From Ignavibacteria bacterium (GTDB lineage: Bacteria; Bacteroidota; Ignavibacteria; Kapaibacteriales; UBA2268): a stretch of DNA of 33,322 bases. Position numbers and translations under genes: made by a program. The notes beneath the pieces are model-generated. The model saw only the letters and a program-made list of their open reading frames with translations. It did not search any database and was not told the origin of the DNA. The stretch's first letter is position 1, and every line of letters starts with the position of its first letter. Below, one piece after another: positions 2,972 through 33,322 of the stretch. The DNA lies in assembly GCA_026416955.1 (NCBI GenBank), contig JAOAEE010000077.1, forward strand, positions 1 to 33,322. The letters run 5' to 3'.

Positions 2972-4600
2972 TTAATTATTCCTTTCATTTATAATATTAA
3001 TTATTTCTATACACATTTTAAAAGCAATCTCGACTATTTCTTTTGCTTCCTTTTCAATTTTTTCTTTGAAGCATTCATCTTTAATCGAGGGCAAATTAAT
3101 TAATACATTTCGATATGCACCCCAAATTCCTGTCTCTAATGCTTTTGCTCCAACTTCAACGTCCGATTTTGATGCAATGTTACCAATTCGGGCAACTGCT
3201 TTTAATGGTTCCCAACACTCATTTGCAATTTTCATTGTGCTCAGTGGGACTTGAATTGCTTTTTTCAAAGCATCTTGCATTGCTTTTTGTCTTTGTTCAA
3301 TTTCTTCGGGGGTGTTTTTGGGAAGTCGAAGTGCTTCCATATATTCATTGAACGCACTTGCATCCGCATCAATCATTGAAATAAGTTCTTTTGTTTTGAA
3401 ATATAATGGAGGAATTACTTTCCTAAGTTCGTCTGTTAAATGTTCAAATTTCCTAACTCCATATGTTAATTGGGCAACCATACATCCAAGGGCTGAACCG
3501 ATTGCTGCAATTGCTGCCGAGGCGGAACCACCACCCGGAGCTGGGGTTCTTGCTGCAATTTGAAGTATGAAATCCCTCACGCTACTTCGAGCAAGCGGCT
3601 CGTTGGGTTCTTCTTCTATCATATATTCGATAATTTTCTTTTGTGGGTTGAATTTGGTAATTGAATTTAAACCAAGTCTGTCGATTACCAATTTGATTTT
3701 TTGGTCTTCATCAAGAATAAACAAGTCTTCTGTTTCTATATAATAATTTGCTGCCATAAGCATTGCTTCTAATGGAATTAACCCGACCAACTCGGAGCCA
3801 ACTACTCCAACTTTTAGTTCTTTTGCTTGTCTTTTAATTTCTTCGTAAACGACGTGTGGTGGAGTTATTTTATAATTTGTCAAATTAATAGAAACTTGGG
3901 CAAGGTTGTATTCCTCCACCCACCATCCAATTGCTTTTACTTCTTTAAATAATCCGGGTTGCTCGGGACCACGACCAGCCTCGCGAATGTTTAATGCTAT
4001 CCTATGTGCTTGTTCCTTTGTTCCAATAATGTTTACATTGTAGGCGATAAGGAAAAATCGTGCACCAGTAACAGTTGCGCCCCATTCTGGAACAAATTCT
4101 GCTGGTCCAAAGTCTGGTTTCCATTCAGGTTTTTTTATTTTTTCTGGGAGCCCTTCGTATTCTCCCTCGCGAATTTGTGGTAATTTCTTTCTGTATTCTA
4201 ATGGTTGAGCAAATTCATACAAGTAGACAGGGACGGATAGTTCTTCTGCCAATCTTTTTCCGAATTCCTTTGAGCACTCGACACATTCTTCCATTGAAAC
4301 ATTAGCAACTGGAACAAAAGGACATACATCCAGAGCTCCAATTCGGGGATGTTCCCCTTTGTGTTTTCTCATATCGATTAATTTCTTTGCGACCCTAGCT
4401 GCGTTTAATGCACCTTCGACAACAGCCTTTGGTTCCCCAACAAATGTGTAAACAGTACGGTTCGTTGATTTACCAGGGTCGATATCCAAAAGAGTGCATC
4501 CAGCAGTGTTTCTAATTGCATCTGCTATTGCGTTGATGATGTTTTCGTCTCTCCCTTCAGAAAAATTTGGCACACATTCTACAATCTTTTTGTTTCTCAT
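2972..4600 (-). CDS. ftcD: Bifunctional glutamate formimidoyltransferase / formimidotetrahydrofolate cyclodeaminase
   Basis: A 542-residue fusion like the vertebrate FTCD enzyme. Residues 1 to about 300 are the formimidoyltransferase, which moves the formimino group of N-formimino-glutamate onto tetrahydrofolate. Key features are VPNFSEGRD near the start and EHPRIGALDVCPFVPV at 83-98; His84 aligns by motif with the catalytic His of mammalian FTCD. Residues about 335-540 are the cyclodeaminase, with the PGGGSAS loop at 355-361 and the segment MIDADASAFNEYM; it releases ammonia and forms 5,10-methenyl-THF. Together they finish one route of histidine breakdown and feed one-carbon units to folate. 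Many bacteria encode the two parts separately. No hutH, hutU or hutI gene lies beside it; the neighbours are unknown envelope genes. The protein looks complete and I see no missing motif. Confidence 0.95.
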   Translation of the reverse strand: MRNKKIVECVPNFSEGRDENIINAIADAIRNTAGCTLLDIDPGKSTNRTVYTFVGEPKAVVEGALNAARVAKKLIDMRKHKGEHPRIGALDVCPFVPVANVSMEECVECSKEFGKRLAEELSVPVYLYEFAQPLEYRKKLPQIREGEYEGLPEKIKKPEWKPDFGPAEFVPEWGATVTGARFFLIAYNVNIIGTKEQAHRIALNIREAGRGPEQPGLFKEVKAIGWWVEEYNLAQVSINLTNYKITPPHVVYEEIKRQAKELKVGVVGSELVGLIPLEAMLMAANYYIETEDLFILDEDQKIKLVIDRLGLNSITKFNPQKKIIEYMIEEEPNEPLARSSVRDFILQIAARTPAPGGGSASAAIAAIGSALGCMVAQLTYGVRKFEHLTDELRKVIPPLYFKTKELISMIDADASAFNEYMEALRLPKNTPEEIEQRQKAMQDALKKAIQVPLSTMKIANECWEPLKAVARIGNIASKSDVEVGAKALETGIWGAYRNVLINLPSIKDECFKEKIEKEAKEIVEIAFKMCIEIINIINERNN

Positions 4601-5398: not shown

Positions 5399-6628
5399 TT
5401 ATTCATATCTTAGTGCCTCAATGGGGTCTAAATTTGCTGCACGGTATGCAGGATAAGCACCGAAACTTATTCCTAGAATGGTGCAAACAATAACACTGAG
5501 TATTATCCAAGAAATAGGGAAATACATTGGGAGTTTGATTGCATTGCCTAAAAGATATCCACCGACTACTCCAAGAATTATACCAATTATTCCACCAACT
5601 TGGCAAAGAGTGATTGCTTCGAAAATGAACTGCCACAAAACCCATCGTTTCTTTGCACCTACGGCTTTACGAATTCCAATTTCTCTTGTTCGCTCCTTCA
5701 CTGCAACGAGCATAATATTCATAATTCCCACACCAGCAGCAATTAGAGCAAAACCACCAGAAAGAAATCCAAAGATAGAGAGAAAGTTAACGAAACTGCC
5801 AAATTGTTGAGAAATTGTTTCGTTCGTTTCAATTTCAAATGTGTTTTCTTCCCAAGGCTTAACATTGCGGACTACACGAAGGTTGCCAATTACCTCGTCC
5901 ATTGTACTTTCAATTAGAGTTCTATCTAATGCTCGTACAGAAATAGTTAGTGATTCTTCCCAAGGCGAGGCAAAATATTTAAGGAAATTGGTAAGTGGAA
6001 TAATGACCATATTATCTTTACTTTGACCTAGCATAGCCCCGCGGGTTTTCATAACTCCAATTACGGTATATCTTTGGTTTTTAACAATGATTTCTTTTCC
6101 TAAAGGATTTGTGTTTGGAAAAATTTTAACTATTACATCATTCCCAATAATTGCAACATTTCGATTATAATCTATGTCTTCTTCTGTAAATGTTCTACCA
6201 ATTTCAACATCAATTGCATTTGTAATGAAGAAAGTATTGTCGGCACCGACAAGAAAAACATCTGGGTCTGTCGATAAATTTCCTGCGTTAATAGTCATTC
6301 CAGAAGTAAAAGAATGGGCAGAAATTAGATTTGTTGAGTTAGTCATCTTTTTTAATTCTTTCCATTCACGAAAAGTAATTGGTTTACGCTTTCGATATTT
6401 ATACCAAGTATGACCTGTTTGAATTGCTGGTTCTCGTTTAATCCAAAATGTTGTTTCGCCTACATCTTCGAGTTGCTTTAAAACTGCTTTTTCGAACGAA
6501 GTAATAATTGTTCCTGCTGCAATTAAAGCAAAAACCCCCATTGCAATACTAAGAAGAGTAAGGAAAGTTCGTAACTTGTTTGTCCTAATTGAATCAAATG
6601 CTTGTGTTATGCTTTCACCTATGTTCAT
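5399..6628 (-). CDS. MacB-type ABC transporter permease (second permease)
   Basis: A 409-residue permease of the MacB/LolCE/FtsX class, the inner-membrane part of a tripartite exporter. The layout fits: a first span at about 22-42, a large periplasmic domain (about 45-275), then three spans in the C-terminal third. The cytoplasmic motif [22 protein letters not shown] lies between spans 2 and 3, and the chain ends in DPIEALRYE, typical of this family. Such permeases do not form a channel; they drive periplasmic conformational changes that push substrate into the TolC duct. The gene is last in the operon and starts 5 bases after the stop of the other permease. The two are related but clearly different, so a heterodimeric transporter is likely. 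The substrate is unknown. Confidence 0.9.
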   Translation of the reverse strand: MNIGESITQAFDSIRTNKLRTFLTLLSIAMGVFALIAAGTIITSFEKAVLKQLEDVGETTFWIKREPAIQTGHTWYKYRKRKPITFREWKELKKMTNSTNLISAHSFTSGMTINAGNLSTDPDVFLVGADNTFFITNAIDVEIGRTFTEEDIDYNRNVAIIGNDVIVKIFPNTNPLGKEIIVKNQRYTVIGVMKTRGAMLGQSKDNMVIIPLTNFLKYFASPWEESLTISVRALDRTLIESTMDEVIGNLRVVRNVKPWEENTFEIETNETISQQFGSFVNFLSIFGFLSGGFALIAAGVGIMNIMLVAVKERTREIGIRKAVGAKKRWVLWQFIFEAITLCQVGGIIGIILGVVGGYLLGNAIKLPMYFPISWIILSVIVCTILGISFGAYPAYRAANLDPIEALRYE

Positions 6629-16255: not shown

Positions 16256-17176
16256 ATGAAAAAAGATTTTTTAGAAGTTACTGATTTTACAACAGAAGAA
16301 ATTCTTCTTGCATTTGAATTGGCAAAGAAAATGAAAGCAAAGCCTTCGGATTATTACGATGCATTGAAATTTAAAACATTAGCACTTATTTTCGAAAAAC
16401 CCTCGTTAAGAACCAGAACGACCTTTGATGTGGGTATTCAACAGTTAGGAGGTTTTTCCATTTACCTTTCGCCCTCGGAAATTAATTTAGGCAAAAGAGA
16501 ATCCGTGTATGATGTTGCAAAAAATCTCGAGCGTATGGTTGATGCAATAATGGTTCGAACTTTTGGTCACGATATTGTTGAAGATATGGCAAAATTTGCT
16601 AAAATCCCAATTATCAATGGCTTAACCGACTATGCTCATCCTTGCCAAGCAATGGCAGACTTTTTCACAATCGAGGAAGTTAAAGGCACGATAAAGGGAC
16701 TCAAAATTGCTTATGTTGGCGATGGTAACAACGTTGCTCATTCTCTGATGGCTGCTGCTGGTAGGCTTGGCGCATATATTGTTGTAGCAACTCCAAAAGG
16801 CTATGAACCAAATTTGAACGCTTATAGGAATGCTATCAAAGCTGCCCAAGAAACTGGTGCACAAATAGAAGTAATTAACGACCCGAAAGAAGCAGTGGAA
16901 AATGCCGATGTTGTTTATACAGATGTTTGGGCTTCTATGGGACAAGAATCCGAAGCAGAAAAGAGAAAGAAAATCTTTATGCCATTCCAAGTGAATAGTA
17001 AACTCTTTTCCTTGGCAAAACCCGATGCAATTTTTATGCATTGCTTGCCAGCACATCGTGGAGAGGAAGTTACCGACGAGGTGATAGATTCTCCAAATTC
17101 GGTTGTGTTTCAAGAAGCAGAAAATAGGTTACACGTTCAAAAAGCAATTCTATATATGTTAATGAAAAAAGAATGA
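16256..17176 (+). CDS. argF: Ornithine carbamoyltransferase
   Basis: A 306-residue enzyme that interconverts ornithine plus carbamoyl phosphate and citrulline plus phosphate in the cytoplasm. The carbamoyl-phosphate site SLRTRT is at 50-55, HPCQ at 128-131, the ornithine-binding DVWASMGQE at 223-231, and the catalytic-cysteine motif HCLPAHRG at 262-269. The SMG loop supports true ornithine specificity rather than acetyl- or succinyl-ornithine use. Length is normal. An AGGTG sequence lies 10 bases before the ATG. The carbamate kinase gene begins one base after its stop, so the enzyme could run in the catabolic direction (arcB-like, ATP from citrulline) or use carbamoyl phosphate made by the kinase. 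Sequence alone does not decide; no arginine deiminase is present in the window. Confidence 0.95.
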   Translation: MKKDFLEVTDFTTEEILLAFELAKKMKAKPSDYYDALKFKTLALIFEKPSLRTRTTFDVGIQQLGGFSIYLSPSEINLGKRESVYDVAKNLERMVDAIMVRTFGHDIVEDMAKFAKIPIINGLTDYAHPCQAMADFFTIEEVKGTIKGLKIAYVGDGNNVAHSLMAAAGRLGAYIVVATPKGYEPNLNAYRNAIKAAQETGAQIEVINDPKEAVENADVVYTDVWASMGQESEAEKRKKIFMPFQVNSKLFSLAKPDAIFMHCLPAHRGEEVTDEVIDSPNSVVFQEAENRLHVQKAILYMLMKKE

Positions 17177-22723: not shown

Positions 22724-25700
22724 TTATCGCAAGTAAACTGCTGGAACAACTTTTATTTGATTTTGGGTTTGTATTTTCAAATTGTAGGTTCCGCTTGGTA
22801 AGTTCAAGGAATTAAATGGGATACTAACTTTAACTTGGTTATTGATAGTGTTGATGTTATTTATCGAATAAACAATTTGACCTAAGTTGTTGATTAATTC
22901 GATGTTAAGTATTTTTTCTTCGTTTGTCTCTATAAACAACTCGCTAATGTGGGTAGTTGGGTTGGGATATAAACGGAATTTAGTTCCATCTGTCATTGTA
23001 TTCCAATCTACACTGGATACGTTAAATAGGGTAACACTGACATTAACAATGTTTGACGAAACAGTATCGCAGTTCCATACCAAACAATGGTATCTACCGG
23101 CATCTTCCACGCTTACATTTGTAATAAGTAGGTTAGGTTCGATAGCAGATGCAAGAGGGGAGTTGTCTTTGAACCACTGGTAGCGAAGATTTAATCCTTC
23201 GGCAACAATGGAAAGTCGGAGAGTATCTCCAATTTTAAGTGAAATTGCATTGGGTAAATCTTTCTTAATTACAGGGGGTTCGGTAACTTTTACAACTTTA
23301 ACTATGTTTGTTTTAAAAGAGCCACCAATACCGGGGACTTTAACAATTGCATAATAATCTCCGGGAATGATTGAAACAACTGGTAGTTTTATGTTAATTC
23401 CAACAACCGAAGGAGAATAACTTCCAATCATAATGTTTCCACGATAAACTTCAACAATGTAGTTTCCGGGAAGGCTTGGGAATGGAATTTCGATTGGTAT
23501 GCTTAAATAAGAATCTTCGTCGCAAACATAAAGAGTGTCGGCTTTAATAAGAATATTTGGTACGATGTGTACTTTGACAATTGCAGTGGTGTCTATTCCG
23601 CATCTGCCATTCACGATAGCATAGAAATAGTCGCTTGTGTCGCTGTATGAAATATTCTTGATTGTAAAGTAATTAGAGCGTGTTCCAGAATATTTCCAAT
23701 CGTCGCGTAAGGGTTTACCATTTTTATACCATTGAATTGGAACTACCCCAGAAGGTACTTCTTCGTAGGTATGGACATCAAAAGTGAAAGTTGCTGTAGA
23801 ACCAAGATAGCCGTAGTAATCTGTGGGTTCCTTTGTAATTTTGGTTTTTGTAAGTATATAGACAAGGATTTTGTCTGTAAAGTCGCTTTCGCATACACTT
23901 GCTCCGGTAACCTCGCAATAATAGATACCAGAAGTAGTAAAGTCTACATTGTTAAGTATCAATTGTTGGCTTTTTGCTCCTTCGATTTTCTTTCCATCTT
24001 TATACCATTGATAGCCGAGTTTGGAACCTGTCGCGTATGTTGTAAGAATAACTTGTTCCCCGCGGCAAGCGATAGCAGATTGGGTATGGGAACTAACTTT
24101 GGGTTTATCATAAATGTAGAAATCTCCCGTCTCGGAAGAAACATATTGCCTTGGGTCAAGATTTGTTGGATGTTCTCTATCGTATATTCTAATTCTATTT
24201 GTGGTGTCGGCAAAAAGCCCACGTGGAATTCTCCATTCAACTGAACCATTATTTGCTGGTATATCTTCGAAGATATTAAAGAATGTTCTACCTCTGTCTT
24301 TCGAAATGTCAATATCTATCTTTTGAACTCCACGAGAAATCCATTTGATTTCGTAAGAACCTGAATTACAAATTTCTTTTGTAGAACCTTCCTCTGGGTT
24401 AATGATTTTGATATTAGGTGTTTTAAAGGAAATAGGATTATCAATACCACCAAAAACATTTTTTGTGTTCACGCCAGCCCAAACTCCATCCAAATCGTAA
24501 ATTCTGCGAAGTAGATTGCCATTACGGTCGTAAACTTCTAATCTTCTGATACCGTTAGATAAGTTATTTGGAATAATTGTAGCCCAAGAACCGTCGACTC
24601 CGTCTAAGTTGTTATAATAATTTGGGCCTTGCGGTGGGAATGGATTCCCTTGTGCGTCTGTTCCTTCTTGTAAAACTGCATTTTCATTTTGTACAATTGC
24701 GACAGTAACTGGATTACCACCAGTTTGCTCATCGAAAAGGCAGACAAAGGATTTTGGTGGTAACCAACTGTCTTCGTCATAAATTCCAGTGCATTTTGTT
24801 GGGGGATTTCCAAAATCCAAAGCAACAGAAGTATTTGTTGTTTGATATCTTTTAATAACGGTTCCTTTTTCTGTACCAAGAACTAAAATCCAATATACTC
24901 GTTGTCCCTCGTTAAACGAGGCGTTTGTTGTTGGAACTAATGTTAGCCATATTAATTTAGTTCCGTCGTTATTTGATTCAAAAGTAGAGTAAGCATTATC
25001 TTGTGTCAAGTCTCTTTGTGAATTGTATAAATACCTATTGTTTTGATGATTGTAATGGAAATTGTTTCCTGCCCCATTATCGGTTTCAACATTTCCAGTG
25101 TAACCAACATTCCTTCCACCAGAGAAAAATCTGTAAACTGTATTTGGATGTAAGTTTTCTAACCTGACCAAGGCGAAGGTGGGAATGCGAGTTCCAAAAG
25201 TACCTACACCTTTAAGAAACTTAGGAACAAATACTTCTGTAAAAGTTGGTAAAGGTCTTACATTTACTACAACTGTGTTGGAAGTGTTAAATCCCGGAGA
25301 ACTTGCACTGGCAGAATAAGTTCCGGAAGTTGAAAATGTAACGTTAGTTACTGTTGCAACACCATTTACAAAATTAGCAGTTACAAAAAAGTTGGTAGGT
25401 CCATTAAAATTTATTTTTGCTTGGTAGTTATGGTAGTTTGTGTTTGTAGTATTATCGGAATTAATAGCCCTGACCTTGAAGTTGGGGACAGGAGAATTGA
25501 TGTGTAACTTTGTATAAAGGTCTTCGATTACAATTCCCACTGGACCAGGTAGAACCTGTATATTAGTTTGGGTAGATGATAGCAATTCGCCAGAAATTAC
25601 TTCGGCGCGAACTGTAATTGTTTCAGATAAATTATAAACTAAGTCGTCAAAAACTACATTCGTGGCCTTGTATGGAATTTGCTTGGTGAGTGTTCCAACA

Positions 25701-26560
25701 AGGTTACCGTTACCCGAGATTAGAGAAAGTCTTACATTTGTAGCGACGGAAACCTTTTTTGCAATCCCATTATTATCAACAGATGTAACAGTTAAAGAAA
25801 AAGGAACATTGGATAATGGAAATTGAGGCGTAATGTTGGAAATTTGTAGTCTAGTTCCACCACCAATGGAGGATTCACTTGTTACATAGATGTTGTCAAT
25901 TCTTAATTCTGGTCGGTTTCCACTTCCTGTGCCAACAAAGTAGTATTTCCATCTAAGATACACAACAGGTTGGTCTTCCAAAGAAGCTGGTAAGGTAACA
26001 GTGAATGTGGTTGAATGTGGTGGTAATGTCGTAGGATTGGGGTGACCAATATATTCGGTATAAATATACTCAATTGGATTACCGTTTTGGTCGGTTAAGT
26101 CGGTGAAATTGCCAACGTCTCCAATTCGGTATTGAACTCGAATACGGTACTCTCGAGTAGTAGTACCGGCAATTCTCCAAAAGCCCCCAGTCCAAGTCAA
26201 TTGGATATTAGTTCTGTTAGTGGTGTTCAATGCGAGTACGGCAGCACCAATATTTCCAGCTGTGCTTGTGTTTACAAATGATACACCATCGGTTCCTAAG
26301 CCATTTATTCTACTTCCAGATGTGAGATTGTATGCTCCGGTGTAATTAGTTGTCATTTCTGTTAAGAGCAAAGGGTCTTGTGTTGAAGTTCGATGAAAAA
26401 TCATTGATGTTGGATAAGTTCCTGCTGGATTAGTGGCACTCCATTCGGTAAATGAATAATTTCCAGTAGAAAGGTCAAATGGGGTTGGATAGGTTAGTTG
26501 GGCATTTGTAAAATAAATAAAGGTTAAAAACAAAATTGATATGAAGATTATTTTTTTCAT
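22724..26560 (-). CDS. Large secreted multidomain Ig-like protein with T9SS type A C-terminal sorting domain
   Basis: A 1278-residue protein, starting at the ATG at 26560 because a typical signal peptide follows (MKKIIFISILFLTFIYFTNAQ); an upstream frame extension to 26602 would place 14 residues in front of it. Domain order by eye: jelly-roll-like N-terminal region (about 20-215, with a TTREYRIRVQYRIGD stretch); several beta-rich modules (220-700), including Ig-like filler; a module of the KRE9-like type near 705-803 (EIKWISRGVQKIDIDISKDRG); Ig-like domains with Cys pairs and YQWYKDG or YQWFKDN cores (about 820-1000 and 1100-1185); and a C-terminal sorting domain with FRLYPNPT, LINNLGQIVY and PSGTYNLKI. 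It should be exported by Sec, then by the type IX system, and cleaved at the surface. No catalytic domain was recognised; adhesion or binding is likely. Confidence 0.9.
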   Translation of the reverse strand: MKKIIFISILFLTFIYFTNAQLTYPTPFDLSTGNYSFTEWSATNPAGTYPTSMIFHRTSTQDPLLLTEMTTNYTGAYNLTSGSRINGLGTDGVSFVNTSTAGNIGAAVLALNTTNRTNIQLTWTGGFWRIAGTTTREYRIRVQYRIGDVGNFTDLTDQNGNPIEYIYTEYIGHPNPTTLPPHSTTFTVTLPASLEDQPVVYLRWKYYFVGTGSGNRPELRIDNIYVTSESSIGGGTRLQISNITPQFPLSNVPFSLTVTSVDNNGIAKKVSVATNVRLSLISGNGNLVGTLTKQIPYKATNVVFDDLVYNLSETITVRAEVISGELLSSTQTNIQVLPGPVGIVIEDLYTKLHINSPVPNFKVRAINSDNTTNTNYHNYQAKINFNGPTNFFVTANFVNGVATVTNVTFSTSGTYSASASSPGFNTSNTVVVNVRPLPTFTEVFVPKFLKGVGTFGTRIPTFALVRLENLHPNTVYRFFSGGRNVGYTGNVETDNGAGNNFHYNHQNNRYLYNSQRDLTQDNAYSTFESNNDGTKLIWLTLVPTTNASFNEGQRVYWILVLGTEKGTVIKRYQTTNTSVALDFGNPPTKCTGIYDEDSWLPPKSFVCLFDEQTGGNPVTVAIVQNENAVLQEGTDAQGNPFPPQGPNYYNNLDGVDGSWATIIPNNLSNGIRRLEVYDRNGNLLRRIYDLDGVWAGVNTKNVFGGIDNPISFKTPNIKIINPEEGSTKEICNSGSYEIKWISRGVQKIDIDISKDRGRTFFNIFEDIPANNGSVEWRIPRGLFADTTNRIRIYDREHPTNLDPRQYVSSETGDFYIYDKPKVSSHTQSAIACRGEQVILTTYATGSKLGYQWYKDGKKIEGAKSQQLILNNVDFTTSGIYYCEVTGASVCESDFTDKILVYILTKTKITKEPTDYYGYLGSTATFTFDVHTYEEVPSGVVPIQWYKNGKPLRDDWKYSGTRSNYFTIKNISYSDTSDYFYAIVNGRCGIDTTAIVKVHIVPNILIKADTLYVCDEDSYLSIPIEIPFPSLPGNYIVEVYRGNIMIGSYSPSVVGINIKLPVVSIIPGDYYAIVKVPGIGGSFKTNIVKVVKVTEPPVIKKDLPNAISLKIGDTLRLSIVAEGLNLRYQWFKDNSPLASAIEPNLLITNVSVEDAGRYHCLVWNCDTVSSNIVNVSVTLFNVSSVDWNTMTDGTKFRLYPNPTTHISELFIETNEEKILNIELINNLGQIVYSINNINTINNQVKVSIPFNSLNLPSGTYNLKIQTQNQIKVVPAVYLR

Positions 26561-26599
26561 ATAATTTCTCCGAACTAAAAAAACAAAACATAAGAATAA

Positions 26600-26607
26600 C
26601 AAAATTA
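26600..26607 (-). promoter_or_regulatory. -7 box upstream of the T9SS-secreted protein gene
   Basis: The minus strand reads TAATTTTG, an exact TAnnTTTG match, 40 bases before the ATG at 26560. No -33 TTG is at normal spacing. Its presence upstream of 26602 also fits the downstream start choice, since most of the extended frame would be leader. Confidence 0.42.
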
Positions 26608-30976: not shown

Positions 30977-31644
30977 GAAAAGTATTTATAGAACCCTCGC
31001 TTTTAAGTGCTAACTTTGCTAACCTTGAGCGCGACATTAGCCTTTGTGAAAAAGGTGGTGCCGATATGCTCCATCTTGATATTATGGATGGTTGTTTTGT
31101 TCCAAATATTACTATTGGGCCAGTTGTAGTTGAATCAATTAGAAAGATTACTACTTTGCCACTTGTTTGCCATTTAATGATTAATCAACCCGAAAGATAT
31201 ATCGAAAATTTTGTATCTGCTGGTGCAGATTATATTTCAATCCATTGCGAAGGGCAAATACATATCAATAGGACATTGGAAGCAATTCGTGGTTTTGGAA
31301 AGAAAAGTGGATTGGCATTAAACCCCGGAACACCTTTGGAATTTGCATACGAAAATGCCCAGTTTTGCGATTTCATTCTACTTATGTCGGTTAATCCCGG
31401 ATTTGGTGGACAGTCTTTTATTCCTACATTTTTCCGTAGGTCTGAATCTTTGAAGAATTTTTTGGTTAAAAACGGGTTGGAACAAGTTCTAATTGAAGTT
31501 GACGGGGGAGTAAAAGTGGACAATGTTCAAGAAGTTGTTCGTGCTGGTGCAGATATGGTTGTTTCTGGCTCTGGATTGTTTAATGGAAATTTAATTGAAA
31601 ATTTGATGTTGATGAGGAAAGAAATAGAAAAGGTTTTGAAATGA
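30973..31644 (+). CDS. rpe: Ribulose-phosphate 3-epimerase
   Basis: A 223-residue TIM-barrel enzyme interconverting ribulose 5-phosphate and xylulose 5-phosphate in the pentose phosphate pathway. The family signatures are visible: PSLLSANFANLERDI at the start, HLDIMDGCFVPNITIGP (34-50), CHLMINQPERYI (66-77), MSVNPGFGGQSFIP (138-151), and EVDGGV (175-180). Metal ligands are predicted as His34, Asp36, His67 and Asp177. The start codon overlaps the valS stop (ATGA) and its own stop overlaps the DUF2703-like gene in the same way, so the three genes are coupled. Length is normal and no motif is missing. Confidence 0.96.
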   Translation: MRKVFIEPSLLSANFANLERDISLCEKGGADMLHLDIMDGCFVPNITIGPVVVESIRKITTLPLVCHLMINQPERYIENFVSAGADYISIHCEGQIHINRTLEAIRGFGKKSGLALNPGTPLEFAYENAQFCDFILLMSVNPGFGGQSFIPTFFRRSESLKNFLVKNGLEQVLIEVDGGVKVDNVQEVVRAGADMVVSGSGLFNGNLIENLMLMRKEIEKVLK

Positions 31645-32102
31645 TAATTAGGCAGAAAACAAACTGTTGTTGCGAGTCGAATAACTTTATAAAATTGGAA
31701 AGTCCTCGAAGTAAGAAACCAAAAAAGTTGATAATTGAATGGAAAAGACTGGTTAACGATGGAAAAACTTGTTTTCGTTGTGGTAATACAGAAGTGGAAT
31801 TAGACAAGGGAATTGAAATAGTTCGAAATTGTGCAAAAAATCTAAATATTGAAGTGGAGGTAGTTAAAAGTGAAATTTCATTGGAGGAATTTCGCAAAAA
31901 CCCATTGATTTCTAACCAGATAATGATAAATGGAAAATTACTTGAGGAATGGTTAAATGCATCAACGGGTTCGAGTTTGTGTTGCGACGTATGTGAATCG
32001 AATGAATGTAGAACAATTCAAATTGATGGAAAGATTTATGAAACAATTACCAGAGAACTAATTATTAAAGGCAGTTTGATTGCAATGACACATATTTTGT
32101 AG
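31641..32102 (+). CDS. DUF2703-like cysteine-rich protein
   Basis: A 153-residue protein with ten cysteines. A CCC triplet is at 9-11; IIEWKRLVNDGKTCFRCG (31-48) gives a CxxC at 44 and 47; a further Cys is at 64; MINGKLLEEWL at 95-105 resembles the thioredoxin-like DUF2703 fold; and CCDVC (114-118) with ECRTI (122-126) adds four cysteines near the C terminus. DUF2703 proteins are small thioredoxin-like proteins of unknown function, so a redox or metal-binding role is likely, by inference. No signal peptide is present, so it is cytoplasmic. It overlaps rpe by four bases and is the last gene of the valS-rpe operon. The family assignment is by eye. Confidence 0.7.
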   Translation: MIIRQKTNCCCESNNFIKLESPRSKKPKKLIIEWKRLVNDGKTCFRCGNTEVELDKGIEIVRNCAKNLNIEVEVVKSEISLEEFRKNPLISNQIMINGKLLEEWLNASTGSSLCCDVCESNECRTIQIDGKIYETITRELIIKGSLIAMTHIL

Positions 32103-32169
32103 ATCTCCTTTAAGAATTTTTTTCACTTAATAAAAACAGAATAATATCGTTTTTTTACTTGCTTTTTGT

Positions 32170-32177
32170 TAATTTTG
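32170..32177 (+). promoter_or_regulatory. -7 box of the tRNA-Glu gene
   Basis: TAATTTTG, exact TAnnTTTG, 15 bases before the mature tRNA 5' end, which is an appropriate distance for a tRNA promoter. No -33 TTG at normal spacing. Confidence 0.5.
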
Positions 32178-32192
32178 TATTTTATTTTTAGT

Positions 32193-32264
32193 GGCCCTAT
32201 CGACTAATGGTTAGGTCACCACTCTTTCAAGGTGGTAGTACGGGTTCGAATCCCGTTAGGGTCA
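32193..32264 (+). tRNA. tRNA-Glu (anticodon UUC)
   Basis: A 72-base cloverleaf. The acceptor arm GGCCCTA (32193-32199) pairs with TAGGGTC (32257-32263), followed by discriminator A. The D arm contains AATGGTTAGG. The anticodon loop CTTTCAA carries TTC, closed by CCACT/GGTGG with one G-U pair, and the T arm is ACGGG-TTCGAAT-CCCGT. CCA is not encoded. It reads GAA/GAG codons. Confidence 0.95.
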
Positions 32265-32272
32265 CAATCTTT

Positions 32273-32280
32273 TATCTTTG
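32273..32280 (+). promoter_or_regulatory. -7 box upstream of the outer-membrane protein gene
   Basis: TATCTTTG, exact TAnnTTTG, nine bases after the tRNA and 52 bases before the ATG at 32333. It suggests the following gene is transcribed on its own despite its internal stop. Confidence 0.38.
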
Positions 32281-32332
32281 CTTTTCGATTTTTTAATAAA
32301 TTTACTTTTTGCCTAATTATCTATGGAACAAA

Positions 32333-33322
32333 ATGAAAGTGTTCCTATTTCTTGTTTTTTTGTTATTATTTTCTTCGTTGCAATCTAATTCCCAAAGGAT
32401 TACTTATGGAGTGTTTGGTACATTTGATTTCAACATTCATCGATGCAATTTCCAAAAGCTGCCCGGTTATCCGAATTGTTGCCCTAATTTTGAAAGTGGA
32501 AAGGGTTATGGTTACAGCTTTGGATTAGAATTCTCGAACGAAATTTTTTCTAATTATTTTCTTTCACTACGAATTGGATTTATTGATTTCTCCTGAGATT
32601 TCCGTAGAAAAGAAACTACTTACTTTCTTGTTAATAATCAACTTATCGAAGGTGAATTTGAACATAGACTTGATACAAAGTTGAATGGTTTATTTTTTGA
32701 ACCAGTTGTCAAAGTTAAACCAGTTAAGTTCCTTTCCCTATCTGCTGGATTTAATGTAACATATTTGGTAAAATCTAAATTTCATCAAGAAGAAGCAATT
32801 ACTAAACCATCTTCTGGTGTGACTTTTATCGATAGTAGCGGGAATGATACTTATTCAAGGGTGCGAAATGTTTTTGACGGTGATATTCCCAATGTCAATA
32901 GGTTCCAATTTTTTGTGGTGAGTAGGATTGGGGTTGAATTTCCCTTATCGAAACAGTGGGAATTTAAACTTGCACCAGAAATTTCTGTTTATTTACCATT
33001 GGTAAATTTTGCAAAAGACATTAGCTGGAAGATTTCTAAATTTTCACTTGGAGCAAGTTTGAAATTTTCTCCTCCACCACCAAAGAAAAAAAATCGTTTC
33101 GAAGAGAAAATTTATCAAATTGATACAATTATTCTAAAAACAAATTTAGAACCACCTTTACGATTTAAAAAAGGTAAAGAAACAATTTCAGAAACAGTTA
33201 CTGAAAATGATGAGACTATTGTAAAGACAATTAGGATAAATCGCAGAGATACAATTTTTACTTATCACGAAAAAAAGTTGCAAGCACGGTTAGAATTATT
33301 TGCAATCGATAGTCTTGGAAAT
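32333..33322 (+). pseudogene. Outer-membrane beta-barrel-like protein interrupted by one in-frame TGA, truncated by the window edge
   Basis: The ATG at 32333 starts a signal peptide (MKVFLFLVFLLLFSSLQSNS, cleavage near SNSQ); an upstream in-frame TTG at 32309 is less likely. The frame reads beta-barrel-like sequence (GVFGTFDFNIH, YSFGLEFSNE, FLSLRIGFIDFS) and then meets TGA at 32594-32596. The same frame continues without any stop for 242 codons to the edge (VKPVKFLSLSAGFNVTYLV, EFKLAPEISVYLPL, FSLGASLKFSPPPPKKKN), ending in a charged region with repeated DTI motifs. No in-frame ATG occurs after the stop, so an independent downstream gene is unlikely. The build resembles OmpA-type envelope proteins of this phylum, with a peptidoglycan-binding domain perhaps beyond the edge; that is inference. 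A nonsense mutation, a sequencing error or readthrough are all possible. Confidence 0.72.

Follow-up and report, generated by a model that had tools for sequence, protein, structure and literature searches.

The TGA codon at positions 32,594–32,596 of the analysed stretch of DNA (33,322 nucleotides, hereafter the window) interrupts an outer-membrane protein gene, and we consider it one of six lesions in a dispensable two-gene surface module that is undergoing recent decay, with a probability of about 0.87. The six breaks are located in an adjacent pair of genes that is intact in one relative and absent from another, and therefore point to ordinary gene decay. The preliminary description, prepared from the window alone, could not reveal that the interrupted gene is one half of a decaying pair, because the partner gene is located on another contig. 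Its proposal of a recent nonsense mutation and its doubt about recoding agree with our results, whereas phase variation, readthrough, and a lone assembly error, which it also listed, fit them poorly.

The interrupted gene and its partner

The outer-membrane protein gene begins with the ATG at position 32,333 of the forward strand, is open for 87 codons up to the TGA, and then remains open in the same frame for another 242 codons, up to the window's last base at position 33,322. The assembled sequence is thus exactly as it was first described. The window is one contig (C22) of a 2.49-Mb genome, which consists of 78 contigs and is 98% complete. The last 141 bases of the window (33,182–33,322, forward strand) are identical to the start of contig C5 and represent an assembler overlap, so that the gene crosses the contig break. 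The window contains the first 330 of 714 codons of the pseudogene (32,333–33,322, forward strand), and the remainder occupies bases 142–1,293 of C5. The joined gene is in register throughout, with the TGA as its single internal stop. The join is based on the overlap, the reading frame, and synteny rather than on read pairs. The first 141 bases of the window match exactly bases 31,511–31,651 of contig C26, and the sequence can probably be continued beyond this end of the window. Since overlaps of the same length are present at both ends of the window, they look like a habit of the assembly.

The 87-codon piece in front of the stop (32,333–32,593, forward strand) encodes a start that by eye resembles a signal peptide, along with the opening segment of the putative barrel; it has no Pfam match of its own. 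The part behind the stop has a match to the OMP_b-brl_2 family (E 0.00013, 22.5 bits) that is below the cut-off of 27 bits, and this family was not reported for the Ch6 orthologue described below at E 0.001. The part on C5 contains two stretches matching the OmpA family (PF00691, E 3.7e-20), as does the Ch6 orthologue (two stretches, E 3.5e-21). Judged from these matches, the product would be an outer-membrane protein, probably a β-barrel, with two OmpA-type domains. A search with the first 330 residues as the query identified members of the family in all 60 genomes searched, including the one studied here, with 2 to 21 matches per genome. All the listed matches outside the locus under study are without internal stops, and the nearest homologue among them is that of Ch6, with 52% identity over query residues 5–330. 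A first search of the contigs of relatives with the part behind the stop, the scope of which possibly excluded the genome studied here, found no relative.

The gene is directly preceded by tRNA-Glu (TTC), which was identified by ARAGORN at 32,193–32,265 of the forward strand. The TAnnTTTG motif is linked to Bacteroidota, and a promoter-like copy of it is located at 32,273–32,280 of the forward strand, with 52 bases between the motif and the ATG. It is weak evidence of a promoter, as the window contains 68 matches to the motif compared to 51.8 expected by chance, and a single site is not significant. The TAA codon reported for the window in the search of the genome with the Ch6 protein is located at 32,297–32,299, before the ATG.

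The partner gene is located downstream on C5. Frame-aware alignment identified five lesions in the partner, compared to one stop in the outer-membrane protein gene. The lesions of the partner are a premature TAG at C5 positions 1,539–1,541, which replaces a glutamate identical in all 13 aligned homologues, a frameshift near 1,632, a premature TGA at 2,942–2,944, a frameshift near 3,311, and a premature TAA at 5,620–5,622. Four of the six lesions of the pair are in-frame stops without a change in length. The final partner piece matches the type A sorting domain of the type IX secretion system (T9SS) at 18.9 bits, below the cut-off of 23. A T9SS C-terminal sorting tail was also matched, at 27.3 bits and just above the cut-off of 27, in another gene of the window (22,724–26,602, reverse strand), which has 1,292 codons, is open throughout, and encodes Ig-like domains; its product is probably a large secreted surface protein.

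The breakage is local. The Ch6 outer-membrane protein matches 23 places in the genome, and internal stops were found only at the locus under study and on contig C76, which harbours a second broken paralogue. The Ch6 partner protein matches 15 places, with stops only in three matches belonging to the same locus. The paralogue on C76 (positions 217–2,368) is of the OmpA type, starts with an ATG at position 217 near the beginning of the contig, beside the end of another gene, and is split by a frameshift in a short run of A residues around position 1,640, ahead of a conserved OmpA-domain motif. Among the matches listed, one homologue of the partner in another genome (G016) also has one stop; single stops in the partner family are thus not unique to this locus.

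The locus in relatives and the age of the lesions

Candidatus Kapaibacterium sp. isolate Ch6 (CP058732.1) is a congener and contains the pair at the same locus and in the same gene order, tRNA-Glu, outer-membrane protein, VWA/WD40 protein, and P-type Ca-ATPase. Both of its genes are intact, with open frames of 726 codons (1,073,248–1,075,425) and 1,602 codons (1,075,466–1,080,271), the latter encoding VWA and WD40 domains. OmpA domains are present in the outer-membrane protein genes of both genomes, but the pair from Ch6 has no stop and no frameshift in either gene. Frame-aware alignments showed that 388 of 711 aligned residues are identical in the outer-membrane proteins and 745 of 1,593 in the partners. 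The sequence on either side of the TGA aligns in a single frame with the one intact congener gene, which shows that the open frame did not arise by chance. In the genome studied here, the Ca-ATPase gene and the two genes that follow it are unbroken and share 60–82% identity with those of Ch6. The pairing with the VWA/WD40 protein recurs but is not universal: a partner-type piece was found within 1.5-kb flanks in 8 of 29 homologue loci (L005–L033), Ch6 included.

What occupies the slot from tRNA-Glu to the Ca-ATPase gene differs among relatives, with an intact pair in Ch6, a broken pair in the genome studied here, no pair gene in a third congener, and a different gene at a fourth locus. In the third congener (G002; locus L054, CALBDO010000005.1), valS and rpe precede tRNA-Glu as they do in the window, the Ca-ATPase gene follows about 150 bases further on, and the site is empty. 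At the fourth locus (L055), the slot contains a single long open frame, which is located on the opposite strand and matches neither gene of the pair. The tRNA-Glu (TTC) forms the left border of the variable slot in all four. Site-specific insertion at this tRNA gene was considered, and no evidence for it was found, as the 3′ end of tRNA-Glu occurs once in the joined region searched of the genome studied here and once in the Ch6 region, without the duplication expected of an attachment site. The window encodes a DUF2703 protein between rpe and tRNA-Glu (31,641–32,102). The DUF2703 gene seems to be absent at L054, where tRNA-Glu is located about 225 bases after rpe and the protein has no match. 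We speculate, with the odds against it, that pairs of surface-protein genes have repeatedly been gained, have decayed, and have been replaced in the slot in this Kapabacteria genus, and that the window has captured one such pair partway through, with a polymorphism that perhaps persists in the living population.

All 34 intact homologues compared, which comprise 28 of the 29 loci and six paralogues from the same genome, have a sense residue at the TGA site. The residue is glycine in 17, Ch6 among them, and alanine in 13, whereas valine, asparagine, leucine, and serine occur once each, and cysteine and tryptophan do not occur. One of the 35 homologue loci (L013, with an open frame of 338 codons) was left out because it is shorter than 600 residues. 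The alignment with homologues that was proposed as a check of the site thus yields glycine or alanine in 30 of 34 sequences. The sense codon in relatives and the retention of almost all conserved sites support the earlier suggestion of a recent nonsense mutation. In 55 alignment columns with at least 90% agreement among 33 homologues, the interrupted gene alone deviates once, the Ch6 gene alone never, and both together once; at 80% agreement, the interrupted gene alone deviates once and that of Ch6 alone twice. Compared to the majority consensus, each has eleven unique changes, and the lineage with the stop did not evolve faster. The outer-membrane protein gene was probably under selection until recently. 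Where 80% of 13 homologues agree, the partner gene alone deviates in six columns, compared to three for Ch6 alone, which is a slight difference and mixed over the 13 outgroups. The lack of excess changes in the outer-membrane protein gene and the slight excess in the partner fit recent decay, without proving relaxed selection. The ratio of non-synonymous to synonymous changes between the two genomes was not used because synonymous sites are nearly saturated (pS 0.74 for the outer-membrane protein gene and 0.66 for the partner).

Approximately 3–5% of single substitutions in the two genes give a stop codon, depending on the transition bias assumed. Using about 4%, the four nonsense changes found over about 7.0 kb correspond to a neutral divergence of about 1.4% (calculated by hand; Poisson range about 0.4–3.6%). 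As a rough estimate with a wide error, the neutral divergence since inactivation is 1–2%. The one-to-five split of lesions between the outer-membrane protein gene and the partner fits the lengths of the genes (hand-calculated binomial, P about 0.4).

Alternative explanations of the stop codon

The strongest alternative is that the TGA, and perhaps also the lesions of the partner, are errors of sequencing or assembly or the result of a strain mixture, worsened by the contig break. The outer-membrane protein gene crosses this break, the 141-base overlaps suggest branch points of the assembly graph, and the frameshift of the paralogue on C76 is located at a short A run near a contig start. However, six lesions are concentrated in one pair of about 7 kb, whereas the 27 other main open reading frames of the window appear unsplit. 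These frames cover about 96% of positions 324–32,102, overlaps counted; two of them, valS and rpe, were compared with relatives, and ten were scanned against Pfam, of which eight have a family match. Together with the three genes after the pair, valS and rpe match those of relatives over nearly their whole length. The four in-frame stops, which leave the length unchanged, and the absence of the pair from a relative also argue against errors. We consider an artefact improbable, and a lone assembly error at the TGA fits poorly with six breaks in one pair between checked neighbours that are whole.

A polymorphic on/off allele, with the stop present in only part of the population and the outer-membrane protein gene otherwise functional, is still less probable. 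It would be consistent with the single lesion in this gene and the retention of almost all its conserved sites, and the contig break within the gene is compatible with a strain mixture. However, a nonsense substitution does not readily switch back, and the partner is broken at five places. The search for repeats in positions 32,100–33,322 found two direct repeats, each short and in two copies, and a single short inverted pair; none of these is at 32,594. Phase variation, which had been listed among the initial options, has no support from repeats or inversion and fits poorly, as there is no repeat tract, inverted-repeat pair, or invertible element at the site and five more breaks are present next door.

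The suggestion that the TGA is read through or recoded, by selenocysteine, tryptophan, or a suppressor tRNA, so that the full-length protein is made, would account for the open and conserved frame after the stop, but its probability is negligible given the ordinary genetic code, the lack of cysteine and tryptophan at the site in the 34 homologues, and the TAG, the TAA, and the frameshifts of the partner, the last of which readthrough cannot rescue. The genome encodes release factor 2 (prfB), all 16 tRNA-Sec matches fall below the family cut-off (the eight scanned as loci are ordinary tRNAs), and the anticodon of tRNA-Trp is CCA. Therefore, TGA reads as an ordinary stop in this genome, and the original judgement that genome-wide recoding is unlikely is upheld. 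Five of the 27 main open reading frames of the window end in TGA, including valS, rpe, and the gene initially called argF, which belongs to the ornithine/aspartate carbamoyltransferase family (16,256–17,176). As originally claimed, TGA terminates these genes at full length: their family matches run nearly to their ends (residues 900 of 909, 203 of 223, and 302 of 306, respectively).

Probable decay of a two-gene surface module

Based on the structure of the broken pair and its state in relatives, a course of events can be proposed. The module would encode two products. The first would be an outer-membrane protein carrying two OmpA-type domains that bind peptidoglycan, and the second a large VWA/WD40 protein, the end of which has the weak, below-cut-off match to a T9SS sorting tail. 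The two-gene unit presumably became dispensable and is now decaying under relaxed selection. The stop, the five lesions of the partner, the intact orthologues, and the empty site are observed directly; relaxed selection, the recent date, and the loss of function are inferred. The 87-residue truncated product of the outer-membrane protein gene would be missing both OmpA domains and most of the putative barrel, and the portion behind the stop would be without the N-terminal region and the likely signal peptide that it contains. The gene should therefore be null. The stop and the frameshift near the start of the partner should make that gene null as well. The outer-membrane protein gene has one lesion and, taken alone, could be a younger or polymorphic allele.

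Among close relatives in an uncultured lineage, the locus can be seen intact, in decay, empty, and with a replacement gene. Automated annotation of the genome could list several spurious short genes at this position. Our limited literature search found no report of pseudogenes in Kapabacteria. The gene decay is of a known kind, and, as far as we can see, the locus makes no long-standing open question testable.

The pair resembles the bacterial pseudogenes described by Liu et al. 2004 (PMC522871), in which a disabled copy with premature stops and frameshifts has intact relatives. In that survey, a match had to contain more than one disablement, as the partner gene does. The outer-membrane protein gene differs from those pseudogenes in that it has a single disablement, and the argument depends on the two genes together. 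The encoded outer-membrane protein has an OmpA_C-like peptidoglycan-binding domain in common with the T9SS proteins of the PG1058/PorE type, as these are described in PMC5053529. The match of the Ch6 orthologue to the NCBIfam PorE model is confined to its OmpA part and reaches 43.8 bits, compared to a cut-off of 600. A β-propeller is a further feature in common with the PG1058/PorE system; in the decaying pair, the propeller is encoded by the separate partner gene, and the outer-membrane protein differs from the PG1058/PorE type by its probably barrel-like N-terminus.
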